From Candidatus Geocrenenecus dongiae (GTDB taxonomy: Archaea; Thermoproteota; Nitrososphaeria_A; Caldarchaeales; Wolframiiraptoraceae), in NCBI GenBank assembly GCA_023267855.1, contig JALNLN010000001.1, positions 87,620-151,619 on the forward strand: a stretch of 64,000 nucleotides of DNA, read 5' to 3'. Under the pieces are notes generated by a model that was not told the DNA's origin, did not search any database, and saw nothing but the letters and a program-made list of their open reading frames with translations. Numbering within the stretch: position 1 is the stretch's first letter; each line of letters begins with the position of its first letter. The position numbers and the translations under genes were made by a program. Below, in pieces: positions 37,219 through 38,185 of this stretch.

Positions 37219-37962
37219 ATGGGTCAAGATAGGTTCATCATGGATATTGAAAACGTAGTTAGAAGAATCTTGTTGAAATATGGTGAGAAAGTAGGTAGAG
37301 GTGTCGATAAGTTAAAAGATAAGCTAGTGGAACTACATCAGACGAATAGAGTTAAGATAAATCACTCGGTAATGGAGATTGTTCTAGGAGCATACATGTT
37401 AAGTCAAGGCTATAATGTAGATGTTGAAGTACCTGTTGGAGATAACTTAATAGCAGACATGATTGCATGGAAAGGTGGTAGAAAGATAGTAATAGAGATA
37501 GAGACAGGCTTCACGTCTCCTGAAAATGCATTAGATCCGCAAGCGTATCTTACAGCTAGAACGATAAGTAAAGTTGCTAGATATGGAAAATATGCAGACA
37601 CATTCTCCTTCGGAACCCCAAACCACAACATTCTTCCAATACCAACACCACTACTAAAACCTCCAAGTAAAAGATTGGAAAAAGAACTCCTCTTAATGAA
37701 GAAACTATGCGACCTATACTACTCTAACCCACCAATAACAATAGAAGATATAACCAACGCACAGATAAAAACAATCTACATACTCAACATAGATACACTA
37801 GAAATAAAAGAAGAAAAACCAAGAAAATACCTCCAAACAAAACTAAAAACAATGACACCGACAATAAAAATAATTGAAAAATATTTAGAGTGGAGCCAGC
37901 ATTCGGAGCAGGCAGGACCAGTAAGTATGCAACCCCACGACCACCAGGTTGCATCCCCCTGA
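37219..37962 (+). CDS. Hypothetical protein with PD-(D/E)XK-like core; 3' end runs into a structured RNA candidate
   Basis: IADMIAWKGGRKIVIEIETGF; last ~23 residues (WSQHSEQAGPVSMQPHDHQVASP) lie over the inverted-repeat-rich RNA element. Confidence 0.6.
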   Translation: MGQDRFIMDIENVVRRILLKYGEKVGRGVDKLKDKLVELHQTNRVKINHSVMEIVLGAYMLSQGYNVDVEVPVGDNLIADMIAWKGGRKIVIEIETGFTSPENALDPQAYLTARTISKVARYGKYADTFSFGTPNHNILPIPTPLLKPPSKRLEKELLLMKKLCDLYYSNPPITIEDITNAQIKTIYILNIDTLEIKEEKPRKYLQTKLKTMTPTIKIIEKYLEWSQHSEQAGPVSMQPHDHQVASP

Positions 37963-38103
37963 ATCCCACCTACACCCTAACTCGTTTTCCGCCTTTTCGG
38001 CGGGGTCGTGAAGTTAAGGTGTAGGTCCGTTGAAGGTACGTAAACTGAGGCTCCCCCCAGCTTACTTCCCTTCAACGTGCTTGCCCCTTTTCCTGCTGGC
38101 TCC
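37892..38103 (-). ncRNA. Candidate structured non-coding RNA, class unknown
   Basis: GC-rich island. Closing stem 37892-37901/38094-38103 (10 bp perfect), nested helices 38028-38036/38069-38077, 38040-38050/38055-38065 (GGAG loop on minus strand), 37968-37982/38012-38026, 37989-37993/37999-38003 (GAAAA loop on minus strand), 37927-37934/37947-37954, and a 7-bp loop pseudoknot 37936-37942/38004-38010. Confidence 0.75.
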
Positions 38104-38185
38104 GTATTTTACTAGATTTGGGGGGTTGATAAGATTTTCGTTCTTAAGTTTTTCTAGTAATACCTTTATATTGGCTGTGGTTTTT

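Follow-up and report, generated by a model that had tools for sequence, protein, structure and literature searches.

The 64-kb stretch of DNA analysed here (the window) contains a 212-nt island with a GC content of 57.1%, against 37.0% for the whole window. The locus raises the question of what kind of molecule this island encodes, and whether it works with the protein gene that it adjoins. It is the highest-GC stretch of its size, matched by no other across 64 kb. The first-pass annotation proposed a new or very divergent stable RNA, and every pairing it listed (the 10-bp closing stem, the 9+11-bp hairpin, the 15-bp stem, CCGCC/GGCGG, ATGCAACC/GGTTGCAT and the 7-bp loop pairing) was recovered at 37892-38103. 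None of 200 shuffles was as stable as the native sequence on either strand (z = -10.25 for minus, -7.59 for plus). The earlier preference for the minus strand held up: sense folded better than antisense in 30/30 homologues, by a mean of 21 kcal/mol, and the 5' end on the minus strand has a BRE/TATA-like box ahead of it. The position assigned to the RNA, intergenic between convergent genes, needs a small correction: a plus-strand ORF with its stop at 37962 overlaps the 3' end for 71 nt, so the location is only partly intergenic.

Sequence comparison establishes the predicted layout, which consists of P1, a purine internal loop, P2 and a three-arm junction (P3, P4, P5), with a pseudoknot between the P5 loop and the P4 internal loop (Table 1). 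All pairs of the 15-bp P4 stem are standard on the minus strand, including one U.G, and the 7-bp CACGACC/GGTCGTG pairing reaches 10 pairs when wobbles are counted. The best-conserved unpaired letters are those of J1/2 (GGAARA vs GAA) and the P3 tetraloop. A kink-turn was considered for J1/2 and, in a check by eye, did not fit. Across copies the RNA is about 180-227 nt long.

Table 1. Features of the RNA, its promoter region and its neighbour in the window, and RNAs beside the protein gene at other loci
Feature	Position	Strand	Remarks
RNA gene, 212 nt	37892..38103	minus	5' end near 38103; conserved fold in 4 genus homologues; covariance models R1/R2/R3
P1 5' strand GGAGCCAGCA	38094..38103	minus	pairs with 37892-37901; covariation across genera
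P1 3' strand TGCTGGCTCC	37892..37901	minus	10-bp closing stem with 38094-38103
J1/2 5' side GGAAAA, purine internal loop, most conserved	38088..38093	minus	GGRANAGG in nearly all homologues
J1/2 3' side GAA	37902..37904	minus	CTCCGAANG nearly invariant
P3 hairpin: 9-bp stem, internal loop, 11-bp stem; conserved G.U near tip	38028..38077	minus	
P3 tetraloop GGAG	38051..38054	minus	GRAG in most homologues
P4 arm	37968..38026	minus	15-bp stem 38012-38026 with 37968-37982; apical hairpin 37989-38003
Pseudoknot strand a, CACGACC, P4 internal loop	38004..38010	minus	covaries with strand b
Pseudoknot strand b, GGTCGTG, P5 loop	37936..37942	minus	covaries with strand a
P5 inner stem ATGCAACC/GGTTGCAT and loop	37927..37954	minus	
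BRE/TATA-like box CGAAAATCTTATC	38128..38140	minus	25-37 nt upstream of RNA; matching box in nearly all homologous loci
Conserved upstream element GGTATTAC, about -60	38157..38164	minus	recurs at Geocrenenecus, Wolframiiraptor and Calditenuaceae copies
Protein gene, predicted PD-(D/E)XK-like	37219..37962	plus	convergent; 3' end overlaps RNA antisense by 71 nt
Second RNA (P1 GCCAAGCCGG, GRAGYA, ... AGGCTTAGAC)	L084, L086, L089, L094, L106, L112, L114, L115, L123, L124, L127, L128, L130	minus	upstream of protein gene; Bathyarchaeia and Brockarchaeota
Double-module second RNAs	L084:4430-4657, L094:3937-4164, L112:4423-4643		two similar pseudoknotted hairpins in one closing stem
Family f3 (G023) RNA, 130 nt, z -10.4, GAGTA/CGA internal loop	L148 about 1665-1800	plus	upstream of, and divergent to, protein gene

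DNA searches found the RNA in 3/4 genus relatives, and the four genus members fold alike (z = -10.25, -10.4, -11.3 and -12.0). Covariation in relatives, which the first-pass annotation had suggested looking for, was present, with double changes in 29 of the 73 consensus pairs among the four Geocrenenecus-type sequences. Covariance model R1 identified the RNA in 18/22 family genomes, all matches having E < 1e-9, and in an alignment fitted to this model 54 of 66 pairs had double changes. A sequence-only MAFFT alignment (n = 14, Nitrosocaldus included) gave a covariation score of 0.413, compared with 0.211 +/- 0.011 when shuffled and 0.13-0.19 when the structure was slid along it, and contained 77% standard pair cells vs 65% in shuffles. 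Pseudoknot strands matched their own partner better than a foreign one (p = 8e-8) while changing in letter from CACGACC/GGTCGTG in the window RNA to CGTGAGC/GCTCACG in Wolframiiraptor, CATGAAC/GTTCATG in G009, and GGAGG/CCTCC and GGGGG/CCCCC in Nitrosocaldus. These comparisons demonstrate, at the level of predicted structure, a covarying RNA that evolves independently, has a pseudoknotted core and is accompanied by a promoter-like box. Strong covariation and phylogenetic spread, together with the lack of any Rfam match, sustain the original proposal of a new or very divergent stable RNA. We consider the RNA itself secure, in the absence of expression data.

Nearly all homologous loci have a BRE/TATA-like box about 30 nt before P1, including GTGAAATGTATAAATC in Terraquivivens and GCAAACATTTATATAG in Calditenuaceae, and the same layout occurs at the RNase P and SRP RNA genes of the genus. 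The window's box sits in the 38104-38185 gap ahead of an MFS gene. Elements of the GGTATTAC type were not seen upstream of the RNase P or SRP RNA genes. In 20/30 copies, four or more consecutive Ts occur within 30 nt downstream, and from the position of the box and these T-runs we infer that the putative transcript ends coincide with P1. The RNA gene of Wolframiiraptor and a sister genus (L019, L020, L022) starts about 300-420 nt from the 16S rRNA gene and is divergent to it.

The promoter, the taxonomic spread, a conserved nuclease-like neighbour and a second RNA group are all points that lay beyond the view of the first-pass annotation. The neighbour protein had no match in Pfam, NCBIfam or PDB sequences. 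An AlphaFold2 model from an alignment of 11 sequences, used because the single-sequence model was poor (pLDDT 44), reached pLDDT 86 and showed helices and strands in the order expected of a PD-(D/E)XK core. Foldseek returned weak matches (best E 5e-3), mostly nucleases of this fold, and the PD-(D/E)XK-like assignment remains a prediction from the model. E53, D80, E93 and E95 are invariant, as is K118 elsewhere. E95 stands where a lysine is usual, giving E-x-E instead of the E-x-K of most PD-(D/E)XK nucleases, so catalysis is not assured. The C-terminal 18 residues (230-247), coded inside the RNA overlap, are disordered in the model. The protein is far commoner than the RNA, occurring in 177/398 genomes of the phylum. 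Its tree broadly tracks taxonomy and no copies were found in viral contigs, and a viral or mobile origin was rejected on these grounds.

A search with the protein against named genomes assigned the genus to Geocrenenecus/Wolframiiraptoraceae, in Caldarchaeales. The RNA occurs in 19/22 Wolframiiraptoraceae genomes, in five Calditenuaceae genomes and one Caldarchaeum, in four Nitrosocaldus-family genomes of the phylum sample, and in one further family (G060, found by model R2). An additional Calditenuaceae genome (G028) has a divergent copy unlinked to the protein gene. Large searches were run with strict filters, so absences are soft. RNA and protein gene are adjacent in Wolframiiraptoraceae (4 genera), Calditenuaceae, one Caldarchaeum and Nitrosocaldus. 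They are convergent in all but the last of these, where the RNA lies behind the protein gene on the same strand, without overlap and with its own TATA box. Terraquivivens and Calditenuaceae have a gap between gene and RNA and no overlap. The other neighbours vary and include HtrA, a methyltransferase, a P-type ATPase, CoxL and a rhomboid protein; names were assigned from ORF sequences, with a Pfam check for HtrA and MFS only. In Caldarchaeum SKYG24 (L067:1450-1740) the protein gene lies between the window-type RNA and the RNase P RNA. An apparent second RNA-protein copy in G016 (L133, contig C26) was rejected, as its ORFs are broken and the contig is probably of poor quality.

In lineages without the window RNA, the sequence on either side of the protein gene was scanned as well, and very stable folds (z to -14.5) turned up there in Brockarchaeota, Bathyarchaeia and a further family of the same order (f3, G023). 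The same scan found no strongly structured RNA beside the gene at Nitrosopumilales loci. This second RNA group was sought near the protein gene only, and the search is biased accordingly. A descriptor consisting of P1, GRAGYA, NGCYTT ... AGGCTTAGAC and P1' matched 13 loci, each time directly upstream of the protein gene and on the strand opposite to it, and 13 of its 14 matches in 59 whole loci fell at this site. Five close copies shared 51 pairs, 17 with double changes. By eye, the apical loop appears paired with an internal bulge (CGGC/GCCG, CAGC/GCTG, CCAGT/ACTGG), and several of these RNAs are preceded by BRE/TATA-like boxes. Rfam matched 0/8 second-group loci (including L084, L089, L094, L127, L128 and L130), and model R2 had no match at the five Bathyarchaeal-type loci tested, so only a shared layout, and not homology to the window RNA, can be claimed. 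That layout comprises a P1 of about 10 bp followed by an asymmetric purine loop, GRAGYA/AGA in the second group and GGAAAA/GAA in the window RNA, and the G060 copy has the same P1 core as the second RNA (GCCAAGC/GCTTGGC). Homology of the two forms is suggested by these likenesses and has not been shown.

We consider it probable, though well short of settled, that the window element is a trans-acting structural RNA that is the RNP partner or controller of the PD-(D/E)XK-like protein. This is an inference made without expression or binding data. In its favour we count the adjacency that persists while other neighbours and even orientation differ, the joint occurrence of the two genes within the order, their presence unlinked in G028 and G060, and the second RNA group beside the orthologous gene. 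The minus-strand RNA would be transcribed from its own BRE/TATA promoter, starting close to the first base of P1, the stem in which its two ends would be locked together. It would act in trans as the RNA component of an RNP, with the adjacent protein as the likeliest partner or control target. P1, J1/2 and P2 would form the likeliest shared contact site, since it is in this region that the different RNA beside the orthologous gene of Bathyarchaeia and Brockarchaeota is similar. Counted against a partnership are an RNA without the protein in one genome (G020), the far wider spread of the protein, the Nitrosopumilales loci without a strongly structured RNA, and the gene/RNA overlap in several genera, which would itself hinder separation. 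The E-x-E motif, the weak fold matches and the biased search for the second RNA group weigh on the same side. More tentatively, and just short of what we would call probable, Thermoproteota may possess an unrecognized RNA-protein machine made of a PD-(D/E)XK-like protein and a dedicated pseudoknotted RNA in two forms, with the shared closing stem and purine loop as the dock. One form would serve Caldarchaeales and Nitrosocaldales; the other, single- or double-module, would serve Bathyarchaeia, Brockarchaeota and one further Caldarchaeales family.

The alternative that survives best, unlikely in our judgement but deserving serious weight, is a stable RNA with a function of its own, unrelated to the protein, whose adjacency is an inherited gene order kept by overlap. 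Many protein-bearing genomes lack a window-type RNA, the broadly taxonomic protein tree would fit the simple inheritance of both genes, and G028 and G060 contain both genes unlinked. G020 keeps the RNA next to a methyltransferase gene, the protein gene being absent from an otherwise conserved locus (L132). This RNA is still structured (z -4.2), with a compensatory change in its P2 pairs from GGAG/CTCC to GAAG/CTTC, and argues against strict mutual dependence of RNA and protein, although the genome is only 76% complete. Simple inheritance of a locked gene order is harder to reconcile with Nitrosocaldus, where adjacency persists in another orientation without overlap, with the different RNA at the orthologous gene elsewhere, and with losses within the order, which mostly remove both genes. 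Across 44 genomes of the order, 25 had both, 14 neither, 4 the protein only and 1 the RNA only (Fisher p = 3.5e-7 by genomes, 0.002 by genera). Shared ancestry was not removed from this test, and joint loss of adjacent genes may count as one event.

An inhibitory role, in which the RNA would hold the nuclease-like protein in check as RNA antitoxins do, would account for a nuclease-like gene paired with a structured RNA, for patchy joint loss, and for the orphan RNA of G020 as a leftover antitoxin. We nonetheless judge it improbable. The protein is present in many genomes with no detected RNA, which is unexpected for a toxin, it is vertically inherited and has no viral copies, and PADLOC gave only one weak match, to HamA. 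In type III toxin-antitoxin systems a single operon holds a pseudoknot RNA of tandem short repeats followed by a ToxN-like gene; the window RNA is instead single, on the opposite strand and with its own promoter, and its neighbour is predicted to be PD-(D/E)XK-like. The weights that we give to an inhibitor and to the RNP partner or controller overlap slightly, because an inhibitor RNA would also be a partnership.

That the RNA serves as guide for a nuclease of the OMEGA or a CRISPR-like kind appears very unlikely. OMEGA RNAs of TnpB and IscB are likewise pseudoknotted RNAs of similar length beside a nuclease gene, but the promoter, P1 and, in most copies, the T-rich stretch leave no free guide segment, insofar as the inferred ends are correct. 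The window RNA also has its own promoter and strand, and its unrelated protein was not RuvC/HNH, TnpB, IscB or Cas in Pfam, NCBIfam and PADLOC searches. The case for action in cis on the overlapping gene, as a 3'-end element or by antisense regulation, is equally slight: it rests on the overlap of the 3' ends in the window, whereas in Nitrosocaldus the RNA comes after the gene on one strand and has a TATA box of its own, in Terraquivivens and Calditenuaceae a gap separates the two, and in G028 and G060 they are unlinked. On gene order we reject antisense or cis regulation as a general function.

A diverged member of a known family (RNase P, MRP-like, SRP or 6S) is hardly tenable despite the similar size and GC-rich fold, as these genomes encode RNase P and SRP RNAs at other loci, scoring 148-178 bits (here on contig C9 at 178 bits and contig C22 at 160 bits, respectively), and no Rfam match was obtained at the element even with permissive settings. 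The first-pass annotation had also found neither RNase P nor SRP motifs here, in agreement with these searches, and had named a known-family hit as a result that would refute novelty; none appeared. Rfam 15 reported only two tRNAs above threshold in the whole window, and a permissive scan gave nothing credible at the RNA, with no RNase P match at E<=10 and no SRP match. Two candidates from that scan, mir-H1 and ncr1241, were far under gathering, mir-H1 on both strands, and were discarded. Homologous loci in other genera, Calditenuaceae and Nitrosocaldus likewise had no Rfam match at the RNA, and searches of the open-access literature found no prior description. The RNA is a new class outside every known family; we do not claim a new biochemical activity.

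To our knowledge, new conserved RNA classes with comparable covariation are rare in archaea, and the known large RNAs of unknown function are mostly bacterial. Recurrent pairing with one uncharacterised nuclease-like protein, across several gene arrangements and both forms of the RNA, makes the function of this RNA directly testable by binding and cleavage, and raises its interest beyond what could be known when the island was first annotated. The genome of Wolframiiraptor gerlachensis, which is in stable cultivation (PMC9246946), carries the RNA and protein pair (L055), as do Nitrosocaldus species.

Among known systems, the neighbour protein is closest, in its predicted model and by weak matches, to the alpha-beta-beta-beta-alpha-beta core of PD-(D/E)XK nucleases such as Hjc, NucS, Can2, EcoO109I and the R2 endonuclease, but differs from them in its ExE motif, its own N- and C-terminal helices and its lack of a Pfam family. 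Like archaeal RNase P RNA (RF00373) and SRP RNA (RF01857), the window RNA is stand-alone and GC-rich, with a P1-like closing stem and a TATA box about 30 nt ahead of the first base; it has no sequence or model similarity to either, and each of them has its own gene in this genome. OLE, GOLLD, ROOL and raiA are large structured bacterial RNAs of unknown function. The window RNA resembles these classes in its conserved, elaborate, pseudoknotted fold, in its discovery by comparative genomics and in its unknown function, and differs from them in having no Rfam match, in being archaeal and in being tied to one protein gene.
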